Below, one piece after another: positions 20,335-64,000 of a stretch of DNA of 64,000 nt. The stretch comes from Undaria pinnatifida (taxonomy: Eukaryota; Sar; Phaeophyceae; Laminariales; Alariaceae). Both the position numbers and the translations under genes were made by a program. The stretch lies in NCBI GenBank assembly GCA_012845835.1, contig JABAKD010000027.1, positions 13,500,487-13,564,486 of the forward strand. Direction: 5' to 3'. Position 1 is the first letter of the stretch. Each line of letters opens with the position of its first letter. Under the pieces are notes generated by a model. It saw only the letters and a program-made list of their open reading frames with translations. It made no database searches and was not told the origin of the DNA.

Positions 20335-21050
20335 ACTCCACACCCATATCTTCCGCTATGTCGGTTGACGACTCTCTAGTCCCTTGACGGACGTCCGTCA
20401 AGGCCGCCCGTCAAGGTTCTCCTCCCACTAAAACTAGTATACTTCGTCTACCGAGGCCTTGACGGGGCTAAACTTCACCGTCCCTTCACTACAACTAGTA
20501 TGTTTTGTCGAACGAGGCCTTGGCGGGTCTAGCTAGCTAGACCGTCAGCTGACCTCATTGCGTGTACCTCTTCGTTGCTGGCAGATCCAACGGAAACCCT
20601 CACTGGTCCTTCTTGCGTGCATATTTGTCCTTCAACAGGTGCTACTGCTGTACGCAAGTCGAAAGTGAAATGCATAGGTTTGAATGACGGAGAGACGCTG
20701 AGAAGCTACTTCGGTTGACGGGTCTTTTACCCCTTGATGGACAACCGTCAAGGATGTCCACACTGCGACTACTTTAGTTTTCTAAAGAGACCTTGACGGG
20801 TCTGCACTAGACCGTTTCCCCACTAAAAGGAGTATATTTTTGTCTAAAGAGAGGTTGGCGGGTCAAACTCGACCGTCAACGGACATATTTGCGAATAACT
20901 GGTCATTTTGCTAGCAGATCCAGCGAACACCCTCCCTGATTCTTCGTGCGCGTGTTTTGTCCTGCGGCAGGTACTACGCAATTCAAAGGTAAAATGCAGA
21001 GACTTACAAAACGGAGAGAGGCTGAGAAGCTACGTTGCTACGGATCTGGC
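20335..21050. repeat. two diverged tandem copies of a 340-370 bp unit with GTCAAGG palindromes
   Basis: Each copy has TCGGTTGACG, CCCTTGACGG/CCCTTGATGG, palindromic CGTCAAGG/CCTTGACG motifs, GCAGATCCA, a GTCCTNC..CAGGT segment and ends GAGAGRCGCTGAGAAGCTAC. No coding seen. Confidence 0.7.
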
Positions 21051-21659
21051 TCTCGGGTGAGTCGATACTTTAGTTGGGGGTGATCTCCTTGTGCCCTGTG
21101 TGTCAATGTAGCGGAGGGGACTACGTGGGACAAGTAAGAGTGAGCCTCGATGCTCCGCCTCTCTAAACCTGCATCCCATGATAACGCCTGTGAAGGTGTA
21201 TATGCTCCAGTACAACTTATCAATGCTCATGGTACATCCAAAACGAACATTCCTTTGAGACCTAAACGTATAGCGGTAGGCCATCACGGGGAGACTACAG
21301 TAACAGGAACCCATGATCAAGACGAAATCCCACGTATCCCCCAGGGGAAAACACACGGAAAAGAGAAAAGGGAGCCACACTCCTGAGAAGGTCAACACGA
21401 AAAAAAAAAAAAAATCGAAGCGTTGTGATTTCTGTGCGAACCGAGAAAACACGACGTTTTTTTTTTTTCTTCTTTTTTTTACATTTGTTTTTTCAACTTG
21501 GTTTTAGTATAGTAACCCTCCCCTGTCGGGCAAGATTTTTTTTTTTACCGTGCTCCTCTGTACCCCCTTGCTTTTATTACCCATGCACGTATGTGGTTCT
21601 GATTTTCACGTCGCTCAGTAATATATTTTTGTAATATTATATAATACCTGGTATATTCC

Positions 21660-37779: not shown

Positions 37780-39200
37780 ATATATATTATAAAAAATGAA
37801 AATACACTCCAGCTGCGAGATCGAAGATTTCGTCGAAACTCATCTTTGCAAGCTGTGTGTGATACTCCGATCGCGCGCATTACGAGTTGTGTGTCCTCAT
37901 TAAGAATATAGGTCGGCGACTCCCCTTACAACTACAGTGTAGCTATCAGGGTCAACAGGGTGATTTTAGTCAGTCTGTGCGCGGAAACTATAAAACCCGT
38001 TTCTGAGGGGGACAAAATCTGACAGCTGTGAAGGGAAATGTATCCTTTTATCAAGTGAATCTTGTAAGTCGAATAACCGGTGAGGGGGGGGGGCGGAGTT
38101 TTGAAGGACGTCCGGGCCTGGTTTTGATCAAAAGCGAGCGGGTTTGGAGGCGGGGGGGGGGGGGTGGGGGGGGGAAGGGGGGGCAATTTGTGCATGTAAG
38201 CTATAAGTCCTTTCAAGGGGATAAATCTGACGGTTTTGGCACCAGTTTATTATTGGGGGGGGGGGGGGGGGTTGGGGCGGGGGGGGGGGGCGGGGGGGGC
38301 AGCTCAATATGTGCGTGGAAACTATACATTATTTTGAGGGGATAAATGTGACGGTTTTGGAAATAATGCATCATTTTATCATGTATATCCTGGGGTAAGT
38401 CGTACAATCAGTGAGTAAAGAGAGGGTGGAGTGTTCGAGGGGGTGGGGTTGGGATGGGTTGGGGGGGGGGGGGGGGGGGGGGGCGGGGGGGGGGCGGGGG
38501 GGGGGGGGGCTTTAGGTGAGGGGTTTGTTATACGTGTGGTGCTAGGTCTAGGCGATGGTGCGGGTGATGAGGAAGAAGGGGGCGTTCGAGGCGGGGGGGG
38601 GGGGGGGGGACACAGCGGCATGGATGGCTCTCGAAAGATAATGAGGTGATATCCTGTGCGTGAAGTGTTTATTAATCTGGCGGATTTCGATATTTGGTGG
38701 GGCGTTTGAGTAAGGGAGAGCAAGAGGGGCGGGGGGGGGGGAGATTTTTTAGGAGGTTTAGGTCACAAATAATATTCAAATACACTTCGGCGGTGAGATC
38801 AAAGATATGTAGCAGCTTGTTATACGCGTGGTGCTAGGTCTAGGCGATCGTGCGGGTGGTTGGAAAAGAGGGGGCGTTGGAGGGGGGGGGGTTGGGGGGA
38901 AAATAATTGAAAACTACGTCATGGATGGTCAGAAAGATAATGACGTGATATCAACTGCGTATAGGTGTTTATTACTCAGGCCGATTTCGATTGTGAGTGG
39001 GGCGTTTGGACAAACTAGGCGGAAGGGGGGGGGGATCGGGGGACGGGGGACGGGGGGGGGGGGTTGGGGTTTTTTATGAACACGAGGGGTCAGGGGAGGG
39101 GGAGGGGAGGGGAGGGGTGGGGGGGGCGGGGGCGGGACATTTCAATATGTGCGCGGAAACTATAAATCCTCAAAGGGGACAAACCTGACGATTGAAGCAA
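37780..39200 (+). repeat. dispersed G-tract repeat family, longest copy
   Basis: Starts with AATACACTCCAGCTGCGAG, continues with GTGTGATACTCCGATCGCGC, TCGGCGACTCCCCTTACAAC, AGGGTCAACAGGGTGA and TCTGACAGCTGTGAAGGG, then alternates sub-repeats (GGTGCTAGGTCTAGGCGATG, GGAGTTTTGAAGGACG) with G runs of 8 to over 20. It gives no open frame of interest. Other copies on either strand are listed separately. The ends are not sharp enough to assign a transposon class. Confidence 0.7.
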
Positions 39201-39344
39201 TAAGACATCCCTTTATATCATCTGGCTTGTGATGTTTACTATTCTAGAAGGTTTGATGTTAGATGCAGCATGCAACCCATTGTTCAAGTGTAGTAAATAA
39301 CGTGTTAAATCTTCATAATTTGTTGTTGTATGATACATGGATCG

Positions 39345-45190: not shown

Positions 45191-45737
45191 ACCCCCTAAC
45201 CCAAGCGGCCCCGGCTGCTTAAGCGACCCCGGCTGCTTTGGCCCCGGCTGCTTTATAACCCAAGCGGCCCAAGCAGCCGGGGTCGCACGGGTTTCAAGTT
45301 TAAAGCAGCCGGGGTCGCTTAAGCAGCCGGGGCCGCTTGGGTTGTAACCTGTTATAAAGCAGCCGGGGTCGTTTGGGTTTAAAGTTCAACCCAGCCGGGG
45401 CCACAGCAGCCGGGGTCGCTTAAGCAGCCGGGGCCGCTTGGGTTGTAACCTCTTATGCAGCAGCCGGGGTCGCTTGGGTTTAAAGTTTAAAGCAGCCGGG
45501 GCCACAGCAGCCGGGGTCGCTTAAGCAGCAGGGGTCGCTTGGGTTATAACCCACGCGGCCCCGGCTGCTTCATAACCCAAGCGGCCCCGGCTGCTTTATG
45601 GACCGATGCTGTGAGAACCCAAGCTGCCCCGGCTGCTGTGGCCCCGGCTGCTTCAAACTTTAAGCCCAAGCGGCCCCGGTTGCTTTATAACCCAAGCGGC
45701 CCCGGCTGCTTCATGACCCAAGCCGCCCCGGCTGCGT
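45191..45737. repeat. palindromic GC-rich minisatellite (GGCCCCGGCTGCTT units in both orientations)
   Basis: More than 20 units of AAGCGGCCCCGGCTGCTT or its reverse complement, separated by TATAACCC or GGGTTTAAAGTTT spacers. The first and last parts run in one orientation and the middle (about 45268-45538) in the other, so long stem-loops can form. Only the last two units of the second copy survive the gap (55785-55830). Confidence 0.85.
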
Positions 45738-46249
45738 TATGGATCGATGCGGTGAGTTTCGTTTTTCGTTTTTCGTTTTTTTTTTTTTTTACCTCTAAAA
45801 GCCCCAACAGAGTTGGAACCCAGCGGTAAGCGTCAAACGAACGAGAAGTTAGGTCTTGAATGTTATCAACCCCTACAAATACGGTGATGTGCTGATGTGC
45901 CCATTTCGAGAGCATCCGCTTTAAGACTTCTCGGGAGATAAGACCGGGTGAATCGGCCTTTTGTTTAGGGGGTGGTCGTAAACTGGGTACACCATTGCAG
46001 TATGATCGCGCAGCAGTGGGGCTAGTGCTGTGCTGCGCGCGTGTCGAACGTCTCCTTGCACAGCCGCGGTAGATCTGCCCGCGCGGGCGCGGTCGTTTTC
46101 AGTGCCCACGTGAAACGGTGCTGTTTTTCAATGGACTTAAGGGGTTTTCTGTCACGAGACCTGTTTCGGATTTTTTTTCCCTAATGGGTTTTTTTTTTTC
46201 CGGTACCGGCGGCCACCACCCTGAACCGGAACCCTGACAACATCCCCCA

Positions 46250-46271
46250 ACCCTATCCCTAACCCTAACCC
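46250..46271. repeat. interstitial telomere-like tract
   Basis: CCCTATCCCTAACCCTAACC; about three CCCTAA units. Repeated in copy 2 at 56337-56361. Confidence 0.6.
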
Positions 46272-46873
46272 AAGTCTAGCCAGAGGCCTGCTTGGTGGGT
46301 GTGTCGTGGGGTTGTTGTTCTTGGGAACACTCTATCACGGAGATTCATTGCTGGTAGGACTGAAAACGAAACAAACACGGAGGTGGGGGTAATCCCTGTT
46401 TCCCTTTTTTTTTTTTTTAGCTTTGTCATTCTTTGTTGGATATGTTGTCATTCTTTGTTGGATATTTTCGTTTCCCGGTTCACGTACAACACAGAGCGTC
46501 ACACGAACACAGTCGTCGTGCAGGAGAGCTCCGCTGACAAAGGCGGATATTTTTGTTTTCGTTTTTCTGCGGTTAAGTTCGTCCTATATTGAGGATGGGT
46601 CTCCATAAAAGAGTCGCTGTGCGGGTATACCGAAGAAACATTGCCTTCGCGGGTAGATCTACGCGAATTCCTCCTTACATGGCAGTTCGGACAACGGTAG
46701 CACCCCCCCCAACACGCAGTGGCCGATGATGTAATCGTCAATTTTTTTGGTGTCACTTTTTTTTTCGTGAAGCCCCCAAAAGGGGGAACAATACGCAATC
46801 TGCAACAAAAACCATTCCGTACGTCGGACAGATCACGATACAGATCATCTAGATCCCATACCTGACGGCATGC

Positions 46874-46899
46874 AACCCTAACCCTAACCCTAACCCTAT
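46874..46899. repeat. interstitial telomere-like tract
   Basis: Four perfect AACCCT units flanked by TGCC(G)GCATG and ATATCTGACGCCATG. Repeated in copy 2 at 56961-56987. Confidence 0.7.
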
Positions 46900-46979
46900 A
46901 TCTGACGCCATGGTATATTGTGCAGGATCTGTGTGCCGCAAATCCAAGCAAGGAAAGCATGCGCTAGAGCATTCAGGTC

Positions 46980-47185
46980 ATCCGGCTCTCACCCGGCAAC
47001 ATGATCTATAAGCCATGCAGATCATATTGACCAGGGATCTGTCTGCCCTGCAATACACAGATCATCTATAGATCGTTACCAATCAATAGGGATATGATCT
47101 GTCCGAGGTGTGACCTGTTTCCGACACGGATCATCTATAGATCATTACTATTTTTCTATAAGGATCTGATCTGTCCGAAGTGTGA
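46980..47185. repeat. diverged tandem repeat with GATCATCTATAGATC palindromes
   Basis: Two to three units of about 85 bp share GGATCATCTATAGATCATTA, ATAGGGATATGATCTGTCCG and AGGTGTGA. It lies just before the ORC6 exon at 47611. Confidence 0.75.
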
Positions 47186-47610
47186 ACCATTCGGCGCGTT
47201 TTTCAGTCGCCGCCTGTGCGATAAAAATTACCTGGTATCCGGTACCTGGTTTGTGTTGCGCCAGTTTGCGGAACGTTTCCCTGGTTAAATTTTGCCCTCG
47301 CTCCGTTCGAGTAGCCGCGCCCGAGTGTTTATTTTAATTTGAAGGCTTTCCTCCTTCCCACCTATAGAATTTTCTTTGCACGTTTTTCTTCAGCTCCCTA
47401 TTTTTTTCTTGTGTCAGAGCCGGGGTCACATACTGTAGCAGCCCCCCCCCCCCCCCCCCCCCCCTACACTATGGTGCACGCCTTCATGCTGTCGCGAGGA
47501 AGGGTTCTGATTATTCCTTCTTTCGTCCTCGTCTCTCGGTTGGAATTGTGATGCAATCGTGTTTTTTCGGTGTTTTTCGTTTACTTTTTCCTCCTCGGCT
47601 TTTGGTTCAG

Positions 47611-47752
47611 GCGTACATTGCCGTCTACACCCGCCTACGCAATGTCCTGGGCGATCAAGTTGCGCCCAAGGGAAGGGACATCGAGCAACTCGCTGTGAAG
47701 TTTGCAGGAGGCAGCGTGGAGCGCTCACGGGAGCTGCTGCAAAAATATTCAG
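47611..47752 (+). CDS. ORC6: ORC6 exon (domain A end), copy 1, with one extra base at its 3' end
   Basis: The acceptor is a T-rich tract ending TTCAG and the donor is CAG|GTGACG. Reading starts AYIAVYTRLRNVLG. In this copy the end reads aaaatattcag, 142 nt in all. The second copy (57690-57830) reads aaaatatcag, 141 nt, which keeps phase 0 into the next exon. The extra T would shift the frame across the junction and is most simply a consensus error in this copy. Confidence 0.75.
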
Positions 47753-50700
47753 GTGACGAGCGCGGCGGGCGGTGGCCCCATGCTACGGTATGCCACCGGC
47801 CTCTCCAATAAGACGAGCCCCACAAGAAAACCCAGTCCAAGAAAAACACAGAAAATATGACATTCGACAGCGCGTTTACCGGAGTAAATATGGGACACGA
47901 CCTTCTCAAGTATGAAATCTAGCCTACAAGCAAACATCATACCCGCCCCCTTCATGAGAGGGCCAGTACTGCTGTATGGGTGCCTCCATTTCTTGCGGGC
48001 CTCATCGCCGGGGAGCATTGGACCTCTCGTCCAAACTTAGCAAACATTGAGGTACTAATCGATGCACGGTCTCGCGGCCTAGCATAAAACACTTGATAGT
48101 AATTATACGAAACCCAAACAGTATTCAAACGGTTTGTCTCAAACCGCACTGCTTGCGAGACATCGCGGTAGTCTGTGGACGCCCCCCCCCCCCCCCCCCC
48201 CCCCCCCCTCATTGCTGCAGTTACACACTTCATGCGACTCGCCGAACACCTCATTGCGCTTCGTGCTTGGTGCAAGCAATGTCTGCCTGGTTGATGAACA
48301 CACGGCGTGCTCCGTCCCGGCATAGTAGGGATACGAGGGTCTATGGTCATACGACTACGCCGTGCACAAACTGAGCCCCCCTTCCCCTCATTGCTTTTAT
48401 GTTATTTTAAAATATATATACAAATACGCAGCTGTGATGTCGAGGATTTTGTCGAAACTCGTCTTTGTTTTGGGAGTAGTCAAGGCGAGAGATCGCATCG
48501 TTGGCTGAGGCTGAACCCATGAATTATAGGGCTTTTTGCGGGTCCGGTCGCTGCTCATGGGTCGGGCCGGGTCACCCTGACCCGACTGGTGACCCGGCCT
48601 GGACCCGTGAGATTTCCAAATCCTCCTGACCGGACCCGGCCCGTGATATTTCGAACACCCTCTTAACCTGACCCGACTCGAATCCACCGGCGAGACGGCG
48701 GGTCGGGTCGGGTCGTGACCCGTGAGAAGCCCTGATAACTTCCAGTCACGAGGGTGGCAGTATCTACTCTAGCGCCACCTGCAACACGTGTGCGAGATCA
48801 ACCAACCCGACGAAATGTCGCAGAAAGAGGTGGCACGCGTTGAAATCAAACGAGAACGTTTATTCTGCCACTCCGTAGTCATTGGAGCCTGTCTTGACGA
48901 CACGATCACTCGTGTGGGCTTCTGACCGCTTATTCTATCACCGCCATAGGTCTATGAGCCCTTGTCGTACTACTTTTTAAGGTAGAGCGATTAGTTTATG
49001 TCAGCGCCAACAGCAACAACGACGACAACAACAACACCGCGACAACGGCGACATCAGCAACAACACATACATGGTACATGCATGAGTCGTTCCGCCCCTC
49101 TTGAGCCGCGATTTTTTGTTTGTACTGACTCCTCCCGCTGCGTACCGTTCGTCGCCGGTTTTCAAATTGTCAGGAGGCATGTCGGCGAACTGTTACGGCG
49201 GAAAAACGAGACCTTTTGAACTACACCACGCCCGAATATCACGCGGCGGCCTTCTTAGTCGCGACCGTCGAAGCCGGGGTGAGGTGTTTAAGGTTTCACG
49301 AGTGGAGCCTTGCTCGCAAGGACCTGAAATCCACGAACAACAAAATGTGCTGCTGGCCTGAATTGAAGCCGTGTACAACTTTTGGCTGGTCACATGCGCT
49401 ACTCGCTGGACTACGTACGTACTGATAGTTGCGTAACTAAAGCAGGGATCGACAGTACCTACCGCTTACATTGGAAATTGCCGGTAACCACAGTGGACGG
49501 TAGGTAATGAGAAAAATCGCGGCAATATCGTGGTAGAATCAGGTCCCTAATGCCTCCTATTTAAAAGCTAACACATTTTAATGCCACGATTCACATGCAA
49601 GCTCGACTCCACACATGCATACACTGCGACGAGCACGTAACCGGCACATCAGCACATTAATCATGTGTCTTTGGGAGGTTGTAACAGACTTGCATTGGTG
49701 TTGCAGAGAAAAAAGTGGAAACCCGGGGGTTTTTTGACCGTCCCCGACCTTGCGGTACGGTAAATTACATGTTCGGAAGTACGACCAACAGCTTGTTTGC
49801 GTATTTTACTGGTAGGTAAGTGGTCGACCCATAGGAAATACCAATCCTTGAAGTACAGTTGCTCAACAGGTGGTTCCTTCTAACGCGCGACAAAAGCTAC
49901 GGTGCGGGGGTGTACTAGCCGTAGTCGTATGACCCTATAGACAAATAGACCCTCGCACCCCTGCACGGATGGGACGGGGCACGTCAGGTGTTCACCGACC
50001 AGGCAGACACCCCGTGCAACAAGCGCGAAGCGCAGTGAGGTTGTTCGGCGAGTCGCAGGAAGAGCGAGCTAGCTGCATCCTACTAAGAACCGCTTGTGAT
50101 ACGCATATTCCGGCACCATGTGCGTTCCTTTCTTGCTCACGGATGACAGCTTCGAGTGGTTTACCTTTTTCGCTGGTGTGACCACTGAAGCCACTCTTGG
50201 GGGTGTTTTTGTGATCGACTCGGAGGCACTCGCTCTAGCGGCTACCATTGTGCTTTCGCGGTTTCGATTTCGGGATATACGCCGCCATGGACGTGGTCTG
50301 CACGTTGCCCCGACAAGAAATATTTAAGTCCGTTTTTGAGTGGCCTAATATCAGAAGCGACAATGGGGGGGGGTATATATACCCCCCCCCTACCGCACCC
50401 CTTGAAATATACCTGGTATATATATGTATATATAATAGTTGGCCTCGGTTGGCACCGACGCTGTAAAACATTATGCGTATATTGGGGTTGGCGTTGGTTG
50501 GCAACAACGCTGTAAAACATGCCAATCACTGCGTGAGCTAGACAACCAGGGCACCCTTTTTTTTTTTTTTTTTTGGGCGTTCACCGTGATGGTCATCGAG
50601 TTAGATCATATTGTGCGGGGTGGAGAACCCTAATTCCGCACAAGGGGAATGATCGAATGATCGCATCACGTAGTGTGAGCATGGTAAGGCACCCACGAGG

Positions 50701-53248
50701 CAGGTACAGAGTAATATCCAATATTGCTGCCTCTGGAGTGGCCACACCAGATAACGAAGTAAATCATTGGCGCTGTCATCCATCAGCAAAAAGTAGGCAC
50801 AAGATGCCGAAGTCCGTCTTACTAGCGGTTCTTGGAAGGATGCAGTTTACCCTTCATGCGACTCGCCGAACACCTCACGGCGCTTCGCGCTTGGTGCAAG
50901 CAAATGGCTGCCTGGTTGGTGAAAACCCGACGTGCTCCGTCCCGGCATAGTAGGGATGCGAGGGCCTATGGCCATACGACTACGGCCATGCACAAACTGA
51001 GTACACCCCCCCTACCGTATTTCGATAGACCACGCGCGGCCCAAAAACGAGCGATGGTCAACGACCGTCTGGGGTATATAGCCTGCGTTGCAACCTTCGA
51101 AGCCAACGTGGTCGCAGGTTTTAAAGGTTTCACGAGTACAGCCATAGGAATGGCACAGACTCGGTGGGTGGATGGGCGGGTGGATGGGTGGTTGAGTGTG
51201 TGGGTGGGTAGGTGGCTGGGTTGTTAGGTGGTTGGGTGGCTAGGTGGATGGGCGAGTAGGTGAGTGAGTGGGAGGGTGGGTAGGTTGTTGAGTGGGTGGG
51301 TGGGTAGATCGTCGCAAAGGAGTCTCGGTGTCCATGGCGTTTGCTGGCGGGAATTTTCGGTTGCCCTGGAGGATAGCAGACTTCACCCATCCAGCCAAAC
51401 GAAGCGATGCTGGTCATCGAGCCAGAGGGGTGCGGGAGTGTCTTCGACTCGTACACCTTCGAACTCCGGTGTTTCGGTGCCATGTCCGCGTCGACTGTAA
51501 ATGGCCGGGAAAAGGCTAGAATTTTTTTGGATGTTGTAGCAAAGTACGTTTTCAGAGCACCTGCGGTACTGTTAAGGTTCCCACGTCACGGCGCGAGACC
51601 TGTCAATGACCTCCGGCTTACGCTACAAAGGTTGCGACGGCCGTCGGTTGCCGAACAGCAAAGTGCTTAGGTGACGGGAATAAACTCATTGGTTGGGTGG
51701 TTGGTTGATTTGTTTGCCCGTTGAGTGATCAGCTTCCTCCCCCTCTGGCCCCTACCCCCCCCCCCAAACCCCTCCCGGCACGCGCACGCCCCTGATGTAC
51801 TCTGCCCGGTCCTTCCCCCCCCTCTCTCCCCACCGTCCCGCTTCGGTCTCTCTCCCTCGCCGCGCAGGTTAAAGTTCAAGCGGTGCGCAAATTCGTGGCG
51901 GCGGAGGTTAAGATGAATGTTCAAGATCTCGATAAGATCTGCGTCGACGTCGTGGTGAGTCATGTATGGGAGTTGTGCTTGTCGCTGGAAAACGGTGCGA
52001 TGGTCCTTCGCGCGCTTCGAGCAGCCGCTAGTTCCTAATTTTCCCTAGTTCATTGTGCGTCTAAACAGCTTGTCTGGTAAAACTCGTAAACCCGTTCGAC
52101 ACTTTGAAAGCGAAAACTGACGGAATAAGCATGACGGTTACAGCGTCGTCGGTCCAGCCGAGATCGTCACGATACCTACCTTATCTAGGGTCACCACCGT
52201 CGCCACCGTGCTTCTTTTTCCCGCTCTTAGAGAAAGTGCGGGCTCGCTGACAACGAGCACGTTGCGAAGGCGTTCCGCATGACTGCTCCAGGCTCGGCGG
52301 ACAGGGGACAGAGGAGCGAGGGCAAGAGAAAACAGGTTTTGCCGGCACCTGCGGGAGGCGGGTGCAACAGCGATGGCTCGCCGGCAACGGCTACGGCAAC
52401 GACACGTCTCGGCGTGCCGGAAGGTTCGTCGCCGCTTTTCCGAACCCCTCTTCAGGGGGGTGCGTGTGTGCTTCCATGGTTTTCGGAGGTTGCTTCCTCT
52501 CGTTTGGGCTTGGGTTAACAGCGCGGGGTGACTGCTCTGTTGTTTTTTTCTACTTGTCTGAATGATTGAAAACCCATGGATTTGTTTCGCACAAACCAAC
52601 ATTGTGAATCCTTTGGGAGCCGCTCACGCGTTTTGGCCGAAGGCTACTTATATTTTTTTCTTTTGCGGTGGATAGAGGGTTAGACCCCTGTATATAGGAC
52701 GATTAACGCCTATGGGTCTGTGGGTGGGTATATCCTAACGTGTTGACTAGGGACTGAACCAGCACGTACTGACAACCCTTGGCCCCACGCGGTTTTCAGC
52801 TCCTTTCAACCACGCCGACCGGAACGATCGTACGCCGATCCGGGCTCGGAATTTTGTATACCCCATTTTTTCCCACATGTGACCCCACCGCTGCCGACGG
52901 TTTGCGCTACGCCATCCCTTTCTACGCCATCTCTTCCGCGTTTAACCCCCTCCGGCGCGAAAAATCTGGACCTTGAATACCGACCGCTGTCGACTGTTCG
53001 CGCGACGCCCTCCCCCTCTACCCCCTTGCACCCTCCGCACCGCAAAACCTCCAGACGTCCCTTCAGAATTGCCGGAAAAACGCCTTGACTTCTCTAAAGC
53101 GGCACCGGGGTCCTCCGGAGCGCAAGCGGGCTCGGCGGCGGGAACAGCACAGTTAGATCCCGCCGCACCTTTGAAAACGTTCGTGAAACGGATTAGGACG
53201 CTTGAATCGCCCCTTTACGCGGAGTGGTGTCGTCAGGCTTTAGCCTGA
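47611..53248 (+). CDS. ORC6: ORC6-like origin recognition complex subunit 6, 3' five exons (copy 1)
   Basis: Spliced gene. Exons: 47611-47752, 49174-49278, 51868-51954, 52231-52459 and 53055-53248 with a TGA stop. ORC6 is the TFIIB/cyclin-like subunit of the origin recognition complex and acts in the nucleus in replication licensing. The first exon has RDIEQLAVKFAGG and RSRELLQKY, matching the domain A-B linker and helix of plant and animal ORC6 (RDLAVQF / RELAVQFG). The second has YTTPEYHAAAFLVATVEAG (family: F/L-T-x-x-x-F-x-x-A-A-F/L). The third (VKVQAVRKFVAAEV) continues as the K-V-D-K helix. The fourth has a basic EGKRKQ segment. The last ends PLYAEWCRQALA, the conserved C-terminal Y-x-E-W helix that contacts ORC3 in the human protein. 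Splice phases are consistent (0,0,0,1), and most acceptors follow a polypyrimidine tract. These exons give about 250 residues; the N-terminal part of domain A lies upstream. Family recognition is from memory, not a search. Confidence 0.8.
48222..48378 (+). repeat. 155-bp dispersed repeat, copy a
   Basis: TTCATGCGACTCGCCGAACA, then GTGCTCCGTCCCGGCATAGT and CATACGACTACG to GCACAAACTGAG, preceded by a C run of about 28. The copies at 49915 (reverse) and 50850 are alike; a fragment is at 3695-3790. Confidence 0.75.
48537..48735. mobile_element. foldback element rich in GGGTC/GACCC
   Basis: Left end AGGGCTTTTTGCGGGTC, right end GACCCGTGAGAAGCCCT: imperfect terminal inverted repeats of about 17 bp. 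The inside is built of GGGTCGGG, GACCCGAC and GACCCGGCC blocks. About 200 bp. A related fragment (GGGTCATGACCCGTGGAAAG) is at about 43100-43138. Copy 2 has it at about 58619-58823. Confidence 0.6.
49174..49278 (+). CDS. ORC6: ORC6 exon (start of domain B), copy 1
   Basis: 105 nt, phase 0 at both ends. Acceptor TTTTCAAATTGTCAG, donor GGG|GTGAGG. It encodes the basic stretch RRTVTAEKRDLL, then YTTPEYHAAAFLVATVEAG, the helix that opens the second cyclin fold of ORC6. The counterpart in copy 2 is 59265-59369, also 105 nt. Confidence 0.75.
49910..50068 (-). repeat. 155-bp dispersed repeat, copy b (reverse)
   Basis: Reverse order: GTACTAGCCGTAGTCGTATG, GCACGTCAGGTGTTCACCGA, GCGCAGTGAGGTTGTTCGGC. 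In the large ORC6 intron between 49278 and 51868. Confidence 0.7.
50850..51006 (+). repeat. 155-bp dispersed repeat, copy c
   Basis: CCTTCATGCGACTCGCCGAA to CATGCACAAACTGAGTAC, followed by a C run. Same intron as copy b. Confidence 0.75.
51160..51310. repeat. GGGT/GGAT-rich minisatellite in an ORC6 intron
   Basis: Degenerate 4-bp units (GGTG, GGTT, GGAT, GGCG) for about 150 bp on the plus strand; the minus strand reads as a threonine/proline-rich low-complexity frame. Four-G-run spacing would permit G-quadruplexes. Also in copy 2 at about 61260-61410. Confidence 0.8.
51868..51954 (+). CDS. ORC6: ORC6 exon (domain B helices), copy 1
   Basis: 87 nt, phase 0 at both ends. Acceptor CTCTCTCCCTCGCCGCGCAG, donor GTG|GTGAGT, both close to consensus. 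The sequence VKVQAVRKFVAAEV then NVQDLDKICVDVV lines up without gaps with the ORC6 segment K-V-D-K-x-x-x-x-x-x-x-x-V-x-x-x-x-F-D-x-x-C. The counterpart in copy 2 is 61969-62055. Confidence 0.78.
52231..52459 (+). CDS. ORC6: ORC6 exon (end of domain B and basic linker), copy 1
   Basis: The acceptor is TTTTTCCCGCTCTTAG. It starts RKCGLADNEHVAKAF, then turns into a disordered Gly/Ser/Thr/Ala-rich linker with the basic EGKRKQ. I place the donor at G|GTGCGT (52459) because its phase 1 end joins in frame to the last exon. A shorter alternative donor, CAG|GTTTTG, ends at 52335. Which is used cannot be decided without a transcript. The copy 2 counterpart is 62332-62560. Confidence 0.6.
53055..53248 (+). 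CDS. ORC6: ORC6 terminal exon with C-terminal Y-x-E-W helix, copy 1
   Basis: The acceptor is AAAACCTCCAG. The frame runs through an Ala/Gly/Ser linker to KTFVKRIRTLESPLYAEWCRQALA and a TGA stop. The Y-x-E-W pattern close to the C-terminus is the ORC6 signature: human ORC6 has Y-L-E-W near its end, and its Tyr232 is mutated in Meier-Gorlin syndrome. The acceptor could also be the CAG 12 bases downstream, which keeps the same frame. The copy 2 counterpart is 63156-63349. Confidence 0.72.
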
Positions 53249-53896
53249 ATGGTCGACCTGAGGGGCGGACGGGCGGCGCGGGGCACCGGGGCGGGAGCGA
53301 CGACACGCCCCATGCGTTAGGATAATCACTATTAAGGCGTGCAAAAGCAGCATTTTTCCCGCGTAGCCCGTTTAGTCCCGAAAAAAAAAACCCCAAATCT
53401 AACTTGCACTATACAGAGTTTGTCCCCCAAACATGAGTATGCCCCGTTACAGTTTTGGAGGGGTTAAGGTCAAGTTACGTTTTTGTAGAGAGGCATTTTG
53501 GTTGGATTGGGGTGAGGGGCAGACTCTTCGCTGACGAGCGCAGGCTTTCCCCCCAAAACGCCTCCTTGTGTTTTACGCGCACCCACAAGTTGACCGAGTA
53601 TCGCATCGGGATGCGATCGCGAACTCATTTTTTTTTTTCTCTTTGTGTCTGTCGCTCCCCAGCGCCGTGTTACTGTATAGGGGGTGGGTAACGGTGTGGC
53701 AAGACGAGCGTACACGAAGAGATAACTCAACGTATCCACAGCATGCTTGGAGTGCGTAGGCGTATATCCATCCTCGCCCAGAGGTGCGACAGGGAGTGAG
53801 ATATTTACGAATGACTTTTTTTAGGAGACTGTATGGGGTGCGATCCTGACCGCGGTGGAAATTCAAGTAAAGGTAGGGCAGGTCTCGCTAGAATTC

Positions 53897-55284
53897 CCGC
53901 TGGTGGACGCATGTAACCGTCGTCAATGTGTGCGCTGGCGTAGAGCAAAATGGCTGATGCTTTCTGTTTTTTCATGGCTATTTGTTGTCTCTTTCCCGGG
54001 GGTGTTCGACCGGACTGCGCGGGTCTCCGGCTGTATCCAGCTCAATGGCGGCCCCTATCGGTTTTTGGCGACCTTGTAAAATAGCCCTGTAGGTATAGCT
54101 TTGGCGGGCGCTTGAATAAGTACCGTCGCTTCGCTCCTAATTCGTTTCAACTATCAAGTTACAGTTCTTCTGGGTACTGGGTACGGGGATGCTTGCAACA
54201 TTTCCCCGAAGATTCGTGCCGTCTAAATCACAAACAGCATAAGCATCTGCCCTAGGCATGCATGCCCTGCAAGACGACCGTCTTGACGACCGTCTTGTGT
54301 CATTGCTTCCCTCGCCATCATCACGTAGTAGATGTGCGCGGTACAGCTGTAGGAGGCTATTAACCGAACCACGGCATTGCACCACTTTATGGCACTGCAC
54401 CACCATAACACCGTGTGACCGTCGCACTACCGATACTTTGACAACGAAGCCCTGTCTTTTGCCTCTATCGCAAGGTTTGCCCTTGCGTAGCAACAACGCT
54501 ATACTATCGCAACAAGACCCCCCCCTTGGTCCCACGCCCATCCCTATACAAGACCCAGCGAAAATGCCAGTCCTCCACTCCTTCAAAATCTCCACCAGGA
54601 AAGTTTAAAGTCGAAGGCCCTACGCGTTTCACGTGGCGATCATTGCGCAGTGCCCTCTGTCACCCCCCTGTGCCAAACCCTAGTCATCACGCGTGCCACC
54701 CCTACGTGCGCCGGTTGCTTATTCCGTCACACTCTTCAAACCATTCGATGAGACGACGTTTGGCACGTGCTCCGCGCTCTTTGCCCGCGTTATTTCTGAG
54801 CGACAAGGCGCCTCAATCGAGGAAATCGTAACTGTTTAATAAGGACTGCCCGAATAAACGTATGAATGCCACATGTGTAGTTCACTACTTGTCCTTAGTG
54901 TACCAAGGCCATGGGATTGCTCATCGGGGAAGGGTGAGAACTGCTCAAGCGGGGGGCTTCAGAAAGACATCTAGGTGCACACCTGCCGTGGCCTGCTTGG
55001 CCTTCCTCGCCTTAGCAGTAAAGGCCGCTCGCCTACCGTCGACGAGCTTGACCTCCGCAGTGAAGACGAGAGGTTGGGCGCCTATACTGCCCATTTGCAC
55101 ACGTTTGTAGCCCGCGGCCTGTTGGCCATGACTGCCACGCCGTCTAGCGGACATTGCCTCTTTGATGTGTGTTACTGCGAAGGAACAGGATATCATGCAT
55201 AGTGAGCAGCCTTTCGAGCTCTCCACGAGAGAGCTCTGGTGGTGACGCGTATACGGTACCATAACGCCTCCAAAGATGACGAAT
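53897..55284. other. single-copy tail of the left contig, no gene recognised
   Basis: The only sequence to the right of ORC6 copy 1 that is not seen again. It has a 17-bp inverted and direct motif (GACGACCGTCTTG) at 54275-54300. On the minus strand (about 55150-54945) a frame reads GAQPLVFTAEVKLVDGRRAA and ends KPPA; on the plus strand another frame is open over the same stretch. Neither is recognised. Confidence 0.4.
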
Positions 55285-55784
55285 NNNNNNNNNNNNNNNN
55301 NNNNNNNNNNNNNNNNNNNNNNNNNNNNNNNNNNNNNNNNNNNNNNNNNNNNNNNNNNNNNNNNNNNNNNNNNNNNNNNNNNNNNNNNNNNNNNNNNNNN
55401 NNNNNNNNNNNNNNNNNNNNNNNNNNNNNNNNNNNNNNNNNNNNNNNNNNNNNNNNNNNNNNNNNNNNNNNNNNNNNNNNNNNNNNNNNNNNNNNNNNNN
55501 NNNNNNNNNNNNNNNNNNNNNNNNNNNNNNNNNNNNNNNNNNNNNNNNNNNNNNNNNNNNNNNNNNNNNNNNNNNNNNNNNNNNNNNNNNNNNNNNNNNN
55601 NNNNNNNNNNNNNNNNNNNNNNNNNNNNNNNNNNNNNNNNNNNNNNNNNNNNNNNNNNNNNNNNNNNNNNNNNNNNNNNNNNNNNNNNNNNNNNNNNNNN
55701 NNNNNNNNNNNNNNNNNNNNNNNNNNNNNNNNNNNNNNNNNNNNNNNNNNNNNNNNNNNNNNNNNNNNNNNNNNNNNNNNNNNN
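55285..55784. other. assembly gap, exactly 500 N
   Basis: A round-number run of N marks a join of two contigs of unknown spacing. The left contig ends in unassigned sequence. The right contig begins inside a palindromic GC-rich minisatellite that is hard to sequence and assemble. Open frames reported across it are meaningless. Confidence 0.99.
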
Positions 55785-58263
55785 AAGCGGCCCCGGCTGC
55801 TTCATGACCCAAGCCGCCCCGGCTGCGTTATGGATCGATGCGGTGAGTTTCGTTTTTTCGTTTTTCGTTTTTTTTTTTTTTTCCTCTAAAAGCCCCAACA
55901 GAGTTGGAACCCAGCGGTAAGCGTCAAACGAACGAGAAGTTAGGTCTTGAATGTTATCAACCCCTACAAATACGGTGATGTGCTGATGTGCCCATTTCGA
56001 GAGCATCCGCTTTAAGACTTCTCGGGAGATAAGACCGGGTGAATCGGCCTTTTGTTTAGGGGTGGTCGTAAACTGGGTACACCATTGCAGTATGATCGCG
56101 CAGCAGTGGGGCTAGTGCTGTGCTGCGCGCGTGTCGAACGTCTCCTTGCACAGCCGCGGTAGATCTGCCCGCGCGGGCGCGGTCGTTTTCAGTGCCCACG
56201 TGAAACGGTGCTGTTTTTCAATGGACTTAAGGGGTTTTCTGTCACGAGACCTGTTTCGGATTTTTTTTCCCTAATGGGTTTTTTTTTTTCCGGTACCGGC
56301 GGCCACCACCCTGAACCGGAACCCTGACAACATCCCCAACCCTATCCCTAACCCTAACCCAAGTCTAGCCAGAGGCCTGCTTGGTGGGTGTGTCGTGGGG
56401 TTGTTGTTCTTGGGAACACTCTATCACGGAGATTCATTGCTGGTAGGACTGAAAACGAAACAAACACGGAGGTGGGGGTAATCCCTGTTTCCCTTTTTTT
56501 TTTTTTTAGCTTTGTCATTCTTTGTTGGATATGTTGTCATTCTTTGTTGGATATTTTCGTTTCCCGGTTCACGTACAACACAGAGCGTCACACGAACACA
56601 GTCGTCGTGCAGGAGAGCTCCGCTGACAAAGGCGGATATTTTTGTTTTCGTTTTTCTGCGGTTAAGTTCGTCCTATATTGAGGATGGGTCTCCATAAAAG
56701 AGTCGCTGTGCGGGTATACCGAAGAAACATTGCCTTCGCGGGTAGATCTACGCGAATTCCTCCTTACATGGCAGTTCGGACAACGGTAGCACCCCCCCAA
56801 CACGCAGTGGCCGATGATGTAATCGTCAATTTTTTGGTGTCACTTTTTTTTTCGTGAAGCCCCCAAAAGGGGGAACAATACGCAATCTGCAACAAAAACC
56901 ATTCCGTACGTCGGACAGATCACGATACAGATCATCTAGATCCCATACCTGACGGCATGCAACCCTAACCCTAACCCTAACCCTATATCTGACGCCATGG
57001 TATATTGTGCAGGATCTGTGTGCCGCAAATCCAAGCAAGGAAAGCATGCGCTAGAGCATTCAGGTCATCCGGCTCTCACCCGGCAACATGATCTATAAGC
57101 CATGCAGATCATATTGACCAGGGATCTGTCTGCCCTGCAATACACAGATCATCTATAGATCGTTACCAATCAATAGGGATATGATCTGTCCGAGGTGTGA
57201 CCTGTTTCCGACACGGATCATCTATAGATCATTACTATTTTTCTATAAGGATCTGATCTGTCCGAAGTGTGAACCATTCGGCGCGTTTTTCAGTCGCCGC
57301 CTGTGCGATAAAAATTACCTGGTATCCGGTACCTGGTTTGTGTTGCGCCAGTTTGCGGAACGTTTCCCTGGTTAAATTTTGCCCTCGCTCCGTTCGAGTA
57401 GCCGCGCCCGAGTGTTTATTTTAATTTGAAGGCTTTCTCCTTCCCACCTATAGAATTTTCTTTGCACGTTTTTCTTCAGCTCCCTATTTTTTTCTTGTGT
57501 CAGAGCCGGGGTCACATACTGTAGCAGCCCCCCCCCCCCCCCCCCTACACTATGGTGCACGCCTTCATGCTGTCGCGAGAAGGGTTCTGATTATTCCTTC
57601 TTTCGTCCTCGTCTCTCGGTTGGAATTGTGATGCAATCGTGTTTTTCGGTGTTTTTCGTTTACTTTTTCCTCCTCGGCTTTTGGTTCAGGCGTACATTGC
57701 CGTCTACACCCGCCTACGCAATGTCCTGGGCGATCAAGTTGCGCCCAAGGGAAGGGACATCGAGCAACTCGCTGTGAAGTTTGCAGGAGGCAGCGTGGAG
57801 CGCTCACGGGAGCTGCTGCAAAAATATCAGGTGACGAGCGCGGCGGGCGGTGGCCCCATGCTACGGTATGCCACCGGCCCTCTCCAATAAGAACGAGCCC
57901 CACAAGAAAACCCAGTCCAAGAAAACACAGAAAATATGACATTCGACAGCGCGTTTACCGGAGTAAATATGGGACACGACCTTTCTCAAGTATGAAATCT
58001 AGCCTACAAGCAACATCATCCCCGCCCCTTCATGAGAGGGCCAGTACTGCTGTATGGGTGCCTCCATTTCTTGCGGGCCTCATCGCCGGGGAGCATTGGA
58101 CCTCTCGTCCAAAGCTTAGCAAACATTGAGGTACTAATCGATGCACGGTCTCGCGGCCTAGGCATAAAACACTTGATAGTAATTTATACGAAACCCAAAC
58201 AGTATTCAAACGGTTTGTCTCAAACCGCACTGCTTGCGAGACACTCGCGGTAGTCTGTGGACG

Positions 58264-58300
<37 letters not shown>

Positions 58301-61300
58301 ATTGCTGCAGTTACACACTTCATGCGACTCGCCGAACACCTCATTGCGCTTCGTGCTTGGTGCAAGCAATGTCTGCCTGGTTGATGAACACACGGCGTGC
58401 TCCGTCCCGGCATAGTAGGGATACGAGGGTCTATGGTCATACGACTACGGCCGTGCACAAACTGAGCCCCCCTTCCCCTCATTGCTTTTATGTTATTTTA
58501 AAATATATATACAAATACGCAGCTGTGATGTCGAGGATTTTGTCGAAACTCGTCTTTGTTTTGGAGTAGTCAAGGCGAGAGATCGCATCGTTGGCTGAGG
58601 CTGAACCCCATGAATTATAGGGCTTTTTGCGGGTCCGGTCGCTGCTCATGGGTCGGGCCGGGTCACCCTGACCCGACCTGGTGACCCGGCCTGACCCGTG
58701 AGATTTCCAAATCCTCCTGACCGGACCCGGCCCGTGATATTTCGAACACCTCTTAACCTGACCCGACTCGAATCCACCGGCGAGACGGCGGGTCGGGTCG
58801 GGTCGTGACCCGTGAGAAGCCCTGATAACTTCCAGTCACGAGGGTGGCAGTATCTACTCTAGCGCCACCTGCAACACGTGTGCGAGATCAACCAACCCGA
58901 CGAAAATGTCGCAGAAAGAGGTGGCACGCGTTGAAATCAAACGAGAACGTTTATTCTGCCACTCCGTAGTCATTGGAGCCTGTCTTGCGACACGATCACT
59001 TCGTGTGGGCTTCTGACGCTTTATTCTATCACCGCCATAGGTCTATGAGCCCTTGTCGTACTACTTTTTAAGGTAGAGCGATTAGTTTATGTCAGCGCAA
59101 CAGCAACAACGACGACAACAACAACACCGCGACAACGGCGACATCAGCAACAACACGATACATGGTACATGCATGAGTCGTTCCGCCCCTCTTGAGCCGC
59201 GATTTTTTGTTTGTACTGACTCCTCCCGCTGCGTACCGTTCGTCGCCGGTTTTCAAATTGTCAGGAGGCATGTCGGCGAACTGTTACGGCGGAAAAACGA
59301 GACCTTTTGAACTACACCACGCCCGAATATCACGCGGCGGCCTTCTTAGTCGCGACCGTCGAAGCCGGGGTGAGGTGTTTAAGGTTTCACGAGTGGAGCC
59401 TTGCTCGCAAGGACCTGAAATCCACGAACAACAAAATGTGCTGCTGGCCTGAATTGAAGCCGTGTACAACTTTTTGGCTGGTCACATGCGCTACTCGCTG
59501 GACTACGTACGTACTGATAGTTGCGTAACTAAAGCAGGGATCGACAGTACCTACCGCTTACATTGGAAATTGCCGGTAACCACAGTGGACGGTAGGTAAT
59601 GAGAAAAATCGCGGCAATATCGTGGTAGAATCAGGTCCCTAATGCCTCCTATTTAAAAGCTAACACATTTTAATGCCACGATTCACATGCAAGCTCGACT
59701 CCACACATGCATACACTGCGACGAGCACGTAACCGGCACATCAGCACATTAATCATGTGTCTTTGGGAGGTTGTAACAGACTTGCATTGGTGTTGCAGAG
59801 AAAAAAAGTGGAAACCCGGGGGTGTTTTTTGACCGTCCCCGACCTTGCGGTACGGTAAATTACATGTTCGGAAGTACGACCAACAGCTTGTTTGCGTATT
59901 TTACTGGTAGGTAAGTGGTCGACCCATAGGAAATACCAATCCTTGAAGTACAGTTGCTCAACAGGTGGTTCCTTCTAACGCGCGACAAAAGCTACGGTGC
60001 GGGGGTGTACTAGCCGTAGTCGTATGACCCTATAGACAAATAGACCCTCGCACCCCTGCACGGATGGGACGGGGCACGTCAGGTGTTCACCGACCAGGCA
60101 GACACCCCGTGCAACAAGCGCGAAGCGCAGTGAGGTTGTTCGGCGAGTCGCAGGAAGAGCGAGCTAGCTGCATCCTACTAAGAACCGCTTGTGATACGCA
60201 TATTCCGGCACCATGTGCGTTCCTTTCTTGCTCACGGATGACAGCTTCGAGTGGTTTACCTTTTTCGCTGGTGTGACCACTGAAGCCACTCTTGGGGGTG
60301 TTTTTGTGATCGACTCGGAGGCACTCGCTCTAGCGGCTACCATTGTGCTTTCGCGGTTTCGATTTCGGGATATACGCCGCCATGGACGTGGTCTGCACGT
60401 TGCCCCGACAAGAAATATTTAAGTCCGTTTTTGAGTGGCCTAATATCAGAAGCGACAATGGGGGGGGGTATATATACCCCCACCCCCTACCGCACCCCTT
60501 GAAATATACCTGGTATATATATGTATATATAATAGTTGGCCTCGGTTGGCACCGACGCTGTAAAACATTATGCGTATATTGGGGTTGGCGTTGGTTGGCA
60601 ACAACGCTGTAAAACATGCCAATCACTGCGTGAGCTAGACAACCAGGGCACCCTTTTTTTTTTTTTTTTTTTGGCGTTCACCGTGATGGTCATCGAGTTA
60701 GATCATATTGTGCGGGGTGGAGAACCCTAATTCCGCACAAGGGGAATGATCGAATGATCGCATCACGTAGTGTGAGCATGGTAAGGCACCCACGAGGCAG
60801 GTACAGAGTAATATCCAATATTGCTGCCTCTGGAGTGGCCACACCAGATAACGAAGTAAATCATTGGCGCTGTCATCCATCAGCAAAAAAGTAGGCACAA
60901 GATGCCGAAGTCCGTCTTACTAGCGGTTCTTGGAAGGATGCAGTTTACCCTTCATGCGACTCGCCGAACACCTCACGGCGCTTCGCGCTTGGTGCAAGCA
61001 AATGGCTGCCTGGTTGGTGAAAACCCGACGTGCTCCGTCCCGGCATAGTAGGGATGCGAGGGCCTATGGCCATACGACTACGGCCATGCACAAACTGAGT
61101 ACACCCCCCCCTACCGTATTTCGATAGACCACGCGCGGCCCAAAAACGAGCGATGGTCAACGACCGTCTGGGGTATATAGCCTGCGTTGCAACCTTCGAA
61201 GCCAACGTGGTCGCAGGTTTTAAAGGTTTCACGAGTACAGCCATAGGAATGGCACAGACTCGGTGGGTGGATGGGCGGGTGGATGGGTGGTTGAGTGTGT

Positions 61301-64000
61301 GGGTGGGTAGGTGGCTGGGTTGTTAGGTGGTTGGGTGGCTAGGTGGATGGGCGAGTAGGTGAGTGAGTGGGAGGGTGGGTAGGTTGTTGAGTGGGTGGGT
61401 GGGTAGATCGTCGCAAAGGAGTCTCGGTGTCCATGGCGTTTGCTGGCGGGAATTTTCGGTTGCCCTGGAGGATAGCAGACTTCACCCATCCAGCCAAACG
61501 AAGCGATGCTGGTCATCGAGCCAGAGGGGTGCGGGAGTGTCTTCGACTCGTACACCTTCGAACTCCGGTGTTTCGGTGCCATGTCCGCGTCGACTGTAAA
61601 TGGCCGGGAAAAGGCTAGAATTTTTTTGGATGTTGTAGCAAAGTACGTTTTCAGAGCACCTGCGGTACTGTTAAGGTTCCCACGTCACGGCGCGAGACCT
61701 GTCAATGACCTCCGGCTTACGCTACAAAGGTTGCGACGGCCGTCGGTTGCCGAACAGCAAAGTGCTTAGGTGACGGGAATAAACTCATTGGTTGGGTGGT
61801 TGGTTGATTTGTTTGCCCGTTGAGTGATCAGCTTCCTCCCCCTCTGGCCCCTACCCCCCCCCCCCCAAACCCCTCCCGGCACGCGCACGCCCCTGATGTA
61901 CTCTGCCCGGTCCTTCCCCCCCCTCTCTCCCCACCGTCCCGCTTCGGTCTCTCTCCCTCGCCGCGCAGGTTAAAGTTCAAGCGGTGCGCAAATTCGTGGC
62001 GGCGGAGGTTAAGATGAATGTTCAAGATCTCGATAAGATCTGCGTCGACGTCGTGGTGAGTCATGTATGGGAGTTGTGCTTGTCGCTGGAAAACGGTGCG
62101 ATGGTCCTTCGCGCGCTTCGAGCAGCCGCTAGTTCCTAATTTTCCCTAGTTCATTGTGCGTCTAAACAGCTTGTCTGGTAAAACTCGTAAACCCGTTCGA
62201 CACTTTGAAAGCGAAAACTGACGGAATAAGCATGACGGTTACAGCGTCGTCGGTCCAGCCGAGATCGTCACGATACCTACCTTATCTAGGGTCACCACCG
62301 TCGCCACCGTGCTTCTTTTTCCCGCTCTTAGAGAAAGTGCGGGCTCGCTGACAACGAGCACGTTGCGAAGGCGTTCCGCATGACTGCTCCAGGCTCGGCG
62401 GACAGGGGACAGAGGAGCGAGGGCAAGAGAAAACAGGTTTTGCCGGCACCTGCGGGAGGCGGGTGCAACAGCGATGGCTCGCCGGCAACGGCTACGGCAA
62501 CGACACGTCTCGGCGTGCCGGAAGGTTCGTCGCCGCTTTTCCGAACCCCTCTTCAGGGGGGTGCGTGTGTGCTTCCATGGTTTTCGGAGGTTGCTTCCTC
62601 TCGTTTGGGCTTGGGTTAACAGCGCGGGGTGACTGCTCTGTTGTTTTTTTCTACTTGTCTGAATGATTGAAAACCCATGGATTTGTTTCGCACAAACCAA
62701 CATTGTGAATCCTTTGGGAGCCGCTCACGCGTTTTGGCCGAAGGCTACTTATATTTTTTTCTTTTGCGGTGGATAGAGGGTTAGACCCCTGTATATAGGA
62801 CGATTAACGCCTATGGGTCTGTGGGTGGGTATATCCTAACGTGTTGACTAGGGACTGAACCAGCACGTACTGACAACCCTTGGCCCCACGCGGTTTTCAG
62901 CTCCTTTCAACCACGCCGACCGGAACGATCGTACGCCGATCCGGGCTCGGAATTTTGTATACCCCATTTTTTCCCACATGTGACCCCACCGCTGCCGACG
63001 GTTTGCGCTACGCCATCCCTTTCTACGCCATCTCTTCCGCGTTTAACCCCCTCCGGCGCGAAAAATCTGGACCTTGAATACCGACCGCTGTCGACTGTTC
63101 GCGCGACGCCCTCCCCCTCTACCCCCTTGCACCCTCCGCACCGCAAAACCTCCAGACGTCCCTTCAGAATTGCCGGAAAAACGCCTTGACTTCTCTAAAG
63201 CGGCACCGGGGTCCTCCGGAGCGCAAGCGGGCTCGGCGGCGGGAACAGCACAGTTAGATCCCGCCGCACCTTTGAAAACGTTCGTGAAACGGATTAGGAC
63301 GCTTGAATCGCCCCTTTACGCGGAGTGGTGTCGTCAGGCTTTAGCCTGAATGGTCGACCTGAGGGGCGGACGGGCGGCGCGGGGCACCGGGGCGGGAGCG
63401 ACGACACGCCCCACATGCGTTAGGATAATCACTATTAAGGCGTGCAAAAGCAGCATTTTTCCCGCGTAGCCCGTTTAGTCCCGAAAAAAAAAACCCCAAA
63501 TCTAACTTGCACTATACAGAGTTTGTCCCCCAAACATGAGTATGCCCCGTTACAGTTTTGGAGGGGTTAAGGTCAAGTTACGTTTTTGTAGAGAGGCATT
63601 TTGGTTGGATTGGGGTGAGGGGCAGACTCTTCGCTGACGAGCGCAGGCTTTCCCCCCAAAACGCCTCCTTGTGTTTTACGCGCACCCACAAGTTGACCGA
63701 GTATCGCATCGGGATGCGATCGCGAACTCATTTTTTTTTTTCTCTTTGTGTCTGTCGCTCCCCAGCGCCGTGTTACTGTATAGGGGGTGGGTAACGGTGT
63801 GGCAAGACGAGCGTACACGAAGAGATAACTCAACGTATCCACAGCATGCTTGGAGTGCGTAGGCGTATATCCATCCTCGCCCAGAGGTGCGACAGGGAGT
63901 GAGATATTTTACGAATGACTTTTTTTAGGAGACTGTATGGGGTGCGATCCTGACCGCGGTGGAAATTCAAGTAAAGGTAGGGCAGGTCTCGCTAGAATTC
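55785..64000. repeat. 8.2 kb direct duplication, copy 2 (runs off the window)
   Basis: Starts at the first base after the N gap, with the same minisatellite unit found at 45694, and continues to the last base of the window (equivalent to 53896). It repeats everything in copy 1: telomere-like tracts at 56337-56361 and 56961-56987, foldback element at about 58619-58823, the 155-bp repeat in three places, the GGT-rich minisatellite at about 61260-61410, and the ORC6 exons. Confidence 0.9.
57690..63349 (+). CDS. ORC6: ORC6-like origin recognition complex subunit 6, 3' five exons (copy 2)
   Basis: Second occurrence of the same five exons: 57690-57830, 59265-59369, 61969-62055, 62332-62560 and 63156-63349 (stop). 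Splice sites and protein motifs are those of copy 1 (RDIEQLAVKFAGG, PEYHAAAFLVATVEAG, PLYAEWCRQALA). Here the first exon has its expected 141 nt and all junctions stay in frame, so this is the better model of the protein. No N-terminal exon can belong to this copy alone, because the copy starts right after the N gap. It may be the same locus assembled twice rather than a second gene. Confidence 0.78.

Follow-up and report, generated by a model that had tools for sequence, protein, structure and literature searches.

The window analysed here, a stretch of 64,000 nucleotides of the Undaria pinnatifida genome (C34:13500487-13564486; the genome analysed comprises 511,146,479 bases in 68 contigs), contains two long and almost identical direct copies of one sequence on either side of an assembly gap, which raises the question whether the kelp has recently duplicated this locus or whether the assembly contains the same locus twice. 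An earlier note on this DNA, which described a near-identical direct duplication of 8.2 kb beside a gap of 500 N, leaned towards an assembly artefact over a recent duplication, and this leaning is supported by the end-to-end overlap of the copies, the indel-type differences between them, the read-sized length of the duplicated unit and the published haploid sample. We consider it very probable that the duplication, 9.6 kb long in full, is one locus written twice, that is, a homotype false duplication at a contig boundary.

Within the window, blastn aligned positions 45694-53896 with 55785-64000 over 8,239 columns at 99.26% identity, with 2 mismatches and 45 gap openings. The near-identical repetition described in the note is confirmed, and it is longer (9.6 kb) than the window reveals: when the adjoining bases of the scaffold were included, the match covered 45694-55284 and 55785-65398 (9,648 columns, 2 mismatches, 67 gap openings), and the segment 53897-55284, whose repetition past position 64000 had been proposed as a check, was indeed repeated there to the last base before the gap. 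The features involved are the following.

45197-45740, no strand assigned: G+C-rich minisatellite with inverted arms; it contains the point (left-contig position 45694) at which the right contig starts
45694-55284, plus strand: copy 1, occupying the terminal 9,591 bp of the left contig (overlap suffix) and aligning end to end with 55785-65398
55285-55784, no strand assigned: scaffold gap of 500 N, presumably placed by 3D-DNA
55785-64000, plus strand: copy 2, the start of the right contig (overlap prefix), running 1,398 bp past the window to 65398

The gap directly adjoins both copies, following the final base of copy 1 and preceding the initial base of copy 2, and the pair is an exact suffix-prefix (dovetail) overlap of two contigs that reaches both contig edges. 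The final letters of the left contig are '...gatgacgaat'; the corresponding letters of the right contig are '...gatgaacgaat', after which it continues into other sequence. No repeat running across position 65398, which would mark this boundary as not natural, was detected with a probe placed there (5 matches, 3 of them short fragments). The gap itself measures exactly 500 N and is the sole run of at least five N in the surrounding 314 kb of the same scaffold (C34), which we analysed as the neighbourhood of the window. A chance match is out of the question because the next longest repeat pair in these 314 kb spans only 1.5 kb, at 92% identity. At the other boundary, the start of copy 2 at the contig edge inside a palindromic minisatellite, as had been claimed, was borne out: the array at approximately 45.2-45.7 kb is built from 15- to 36-base units (with a single row of period 101) in both orientations, with inverted arms of up to 71 bases.

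A dispersed repeat of approximately 1-1.5 kb, with copies about 83-92% alike, also occurs in both orientations across the neighbourhood. The following copies were located by blastn, in window coordinates extended rightward.

37780-39239, 94650-96132, 133029-134109 and 224957-226219, both orientations: copies of the dispersed repeat

The differences between the two copies were counted in affine global alignments under four scoring schemes; a MAFFT global alignment, which listed 81 events, rendered adjacent indels as runs of substitutions, and the affine alignments were used instead. In three of the four schemes, the 9,648 columns contained 2 substitutions and 66 indel events, which comprise 91 bases; the fourth scheme gave 5 and 64, respectively. 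Single-base indels account for 55 of the 66 events. Fifty of the 66 lie in runs of at least two identical bases, which make up 47% of the bases of copy 1 (binomial p about 2e-6), and 32 lie in runs of at least three, which make up 21.5% (binomial p 1e-6), both tests being rough because run length was taken from the longer copy, which favours longer runs. The differences had been described from the letters as mostly one-base indels and changes of homopolymer length; with 2 substitutions against 66 indels, mostly in short single-base runs, this description holds, and the proposed count of substitutions against indels favours the artefact.

As a yardstick for how repeats of this neighbourhood diverge, we took from the 314 kb analysed the 27 other repeat pairs that blastn aligned over more than 600 bp, a set whose members overlap one another and cannot be treated as independent. 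Together they contain 1,406 mismatches and 551 gap openings, a ratio of 2.55 (range 1.6-4.1), as opposed to approximately 0.03 for the 9.6 kb overlap. Even the three most alike pairs, at about 96% identity and representing three copies of one repeat, show 33 mismatches to 13 gap openings versus 2 to 66 in the overlap (Fisher p 9e-16, calculated on pairs that are not independent).

The sample and the assembly procedure have been published for the strain M23, and these details should apply to the genome analysed here, although it is not fully identical with the published set: it holds 511,146,479 bases in 68 contigs, compared with 511,280,173 bases in 114 scaffolds with a scaffold N50 of 16,510,065 (PMC7058681). 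For M23, a haploid male gametophyte, grown clonally from a single zoospore, was sequenced as PacBio Sequel subreads with an N50 of 11,463 bp at about 120x, and the assembly was made with FALCON, Arrow and Pilon followed by 3D-DNA (misjoin, scaffolding and seal steps); the passages that describe the scaffolding do not mention a step in which overlaps are merged (PMC7058681). With its 9.6 kb, the overlap is about one read long by the published subread N50, the length of the corrected reads not being given in those passages. The difference between the published scaffold and contig totals is 252,000, which by our arithmetic equals 504 x 500 N and fits the gap seen here (PMC7058681). The same source reports a k-mer heterozygosity of 0.48% for this haploid clonal sample, a value that needs explaining by repeats, contamination or a mixed culture.

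A real tandem duplication, 9.6 kb long, head to tail and very recent, could also present itself as unit, gap and unit on one strand if the assembler had failed to resolve it and its junction had been lost in the gap, and nearly zero substitutions would be compatible with a duplication too young to have diverged. The geometry alone is not decisive because a very young true tandem pair has the same outer geometry. However, with long reads at about 120x (PMC7058681), many reads should cross the junction of a true pair and the contig ends would be expected to overshoot it, whereas neither contig includes a single base of a junction between unit end and unit start, although the gap could hide one. 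The length of the unit, about that of one read, also speaks against a true tandem, and so does the combination of 66 indels with 2 substitutions, which is unlike that of the 27 other repeat pairs of the neighbourhood. On this evidence, a genuine tandem duplication is very unlikely.

Adjacent and near-identical copies might alternatively be the two alleles of a diploid, placed side by side as a heterotype (haplotype) false duplication, a reading to which the k-mer heterozygosity of 0.48% lends some colour (PMC7058681). At this rate, however, about 46 substitutions would be expected over 9.6 kb and 2 were seen, and according to the publication the DNA came from a haploid clone, a male gametophyte raised from a single zoospore (PMC7058681). 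Given the published haploid sample and the near absence of substitutions, we rejected the allelic explanation, which is even more improbable than a true tandem pair. Contigs frequently terminate in repeats, and a misjoin of contigs from different places that share a long repeat would agree with this tendency. Against it, two probes, one made of the initial 1 kb of the unit and the other placed across its far end (499 bases inside the unit and the rest beyond), matched at full length only at these two places, and the other probe matches among those listed were fragments of no more than approximately 250 bases. A shared dispersed repeat was rejected on the strength of these probes with only two full-length places, which covered the start and the far end of the unit only, and we give a misjoin of this kind next to no chance.

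The preferred reading, one locus written twice, would predict consensus errors related to the contig ends, and the distribution of indels along the overlap, which is uneven (KS p 0.012), agrees with it in part. Two stretches stand out.

49700-53699, no strand assigned: cleanest stretch of the overlap, with 7 of the 66 indels in 4 kb, its limits chosen after the list had been seen
47700-48999, no strand assigned: dense indel cluster with 23 of the 66 events (14 and 9), including a poly-C run of 27 versus 35

In the first 2 kb, adjoining the start of the right contig, a base is absent from the right contig nine times and from the left once, and at 49.0-53.9 kb it is absent from the left contig 11 times and from the right once. 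Ranked along the overlap, left-missing and right-missing indels are shifted against each other in the way predicted (one-sided p 0.027); compared by halves of the overlap, the side lacking the base shows no difference (Fisher p 0.45). No differences at all separate the copies from 51755 to 53309, and the binomial p of 3e-8 for the 7 indels at 49.7-53.7 kb is to be discounted, this stretch having been picked post hoc. Two observations count against the artefact. In the last 1.3 kb, adjoining the end of the left contig, the base is absent from one contig 11 times and from the other 10 times, which is not predicted by weak contig ends alone. The cluster at 47.7-49.0 kb lies away from both contig ends and, apart from the poly-C run, is without explanation.

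The duplicated unit had been labelled with ORC6, with the corollary that the window would hold a single copy of this gene if the duplication were false. This label finds no support: no match was obtained among the window peptides scanned, and the only PF05460 match of the genome lies on another scaffold. Specifically, 20 plus-strand peptides, of which 19 belong to the duplicated stretch and one of these is part of another, produced no ORC6 match in Pfam scans and only weak matches below the curated cut-offs, and three PDB scans of frames and a tblastn search of one frame against plasmids were likewise without an ORC6 match. Searching the whole genome for PF05460 in six frames, with E values up to 1, returned only C1:3614221-3614388 (25.0 bits, E 0.009). 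Because exon-wise searches are weak for short exons, these results leave ORC6 in the window unproven without excluding it. The peptide encoded at approximately 47.6 kb may show some likeness to the final part of the first ORC6 domain. Elsewhere in the window, the frame at 20953-21051 resembles part of the PF05460 frame on C1 (46% over 35 columns, E 0.048); Pfam made no ORC6 call for it. Whichever gene lies in the unit, the assembly shows two copies of it. The match of the shared peptide at approximately 47.6 kb ends four residues earlier in copy 2, beside a base that is missing from copy 2, and a difference of this kind could pass for divergence between paralogues.

Collectively, the best explanation would be that the long-read assembler split one locus, in truth probably single-copy, into two contigs, each of them containing this 9.6 kb sequence of roughly one read length. 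Our guess is that the foldback minisatellite at 45.2-45.7 kb stopped the assembler, and FALCON may have broken the sequence at this inverted array. The Hi-C scaffolder would then have placed both contigs side by side, correctly oriented and with 500 N between them, leaving the overlap unmerged. The differences between the copies would be leftover consensus errors, and polishing with short reads may have been hampered because such reads fit both copies equally well.

Most likely, the scaffold should be approximately 10.1 kb shorter, with a single copy of the locus; the earlier estimate that the true distance would be about 10 kb shorter if the duplication were false agrees with the measured 9,614 + 500 = 10,114 bp. 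The case is of little biological consequence and is useful as a warning: gene counts, calls of tandem duplicates and distances on this scaffold are probably off by approximately 10.1 kb and one copy, and the 504 gaps of 500 N implied by the published totals (PMC7058681) merit the same check for end-to-end overlaps before expansions of gene families are claimed. A weak test for further dovetail gaps in the genome, made by eye on kinase matches (135 matches; 131 of 844 candidates scored) and ABC matches (18 matches; 19 of 211 scored), revealed no pair of equal score on the same strand about 10 kb apart. The nearest pairs were on C33, 34 kb apart (96.8 and 96.6 bits), and on C2, separated by 12 kb and differing in both score and range; another near case, on C57, consists of two matches with equal scores on opposite strands, 52 kb apart. 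Our literature search turned up no paper naming both Undaria pinnatifida and 'false duplication', and where PMC12116465 names the M23 assembly, no such error is reported.

In the same searches, the six best ABC-transporter matches of the genome, among the best-scored matches, all fell on C45, C49 and C50, where their frames run for 246-752 aa without interruption; long uninterrupted kinase-like frames are likewise present on C45 and C50. These three contigs may stem from contaminating bacteria and have remained in the kelp assembly.

Among known arrangements, the locus resembles a recent segmental tandem duplication in its head-to-tail, near-identical copies but is unlike one in that neither contig contains the junction and in that its copies differ by indels, chiefly within short runs, instead of by substitutions. 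An intervening gap counts among the hallmarks of false duplications (PMC9516828), and an algorithm that merges overlapping contigs has been used with a modified 3D-DNA (PMC6421076). With heterotype (haplotype) false duplications, or undercollapsed heterozygosity, as described in these two sources, our case shares two copies of one locus lying side by side with a gap, and it departs from them in the published haploid clone and the almost complete lack of substitutions (PMC9516828; PMC6421076). Homotype false duplications have been characterized as dovetail overlaps about one read long that were left unmerged with a gap between the copies, and one example was traced to a FALCON bug that has since been fixed (PMC8081667). 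Judged from sequence features alone, we found no difference between our case and this description, and the artefact is most likely of an ordinary, already described kind: like the homotype false duplications of PMC8081667, it is a read-sized dovetail, arranged in tandem with a gap, without signs of haplotype variants and presumably produced by FALCON from PacBio reads.
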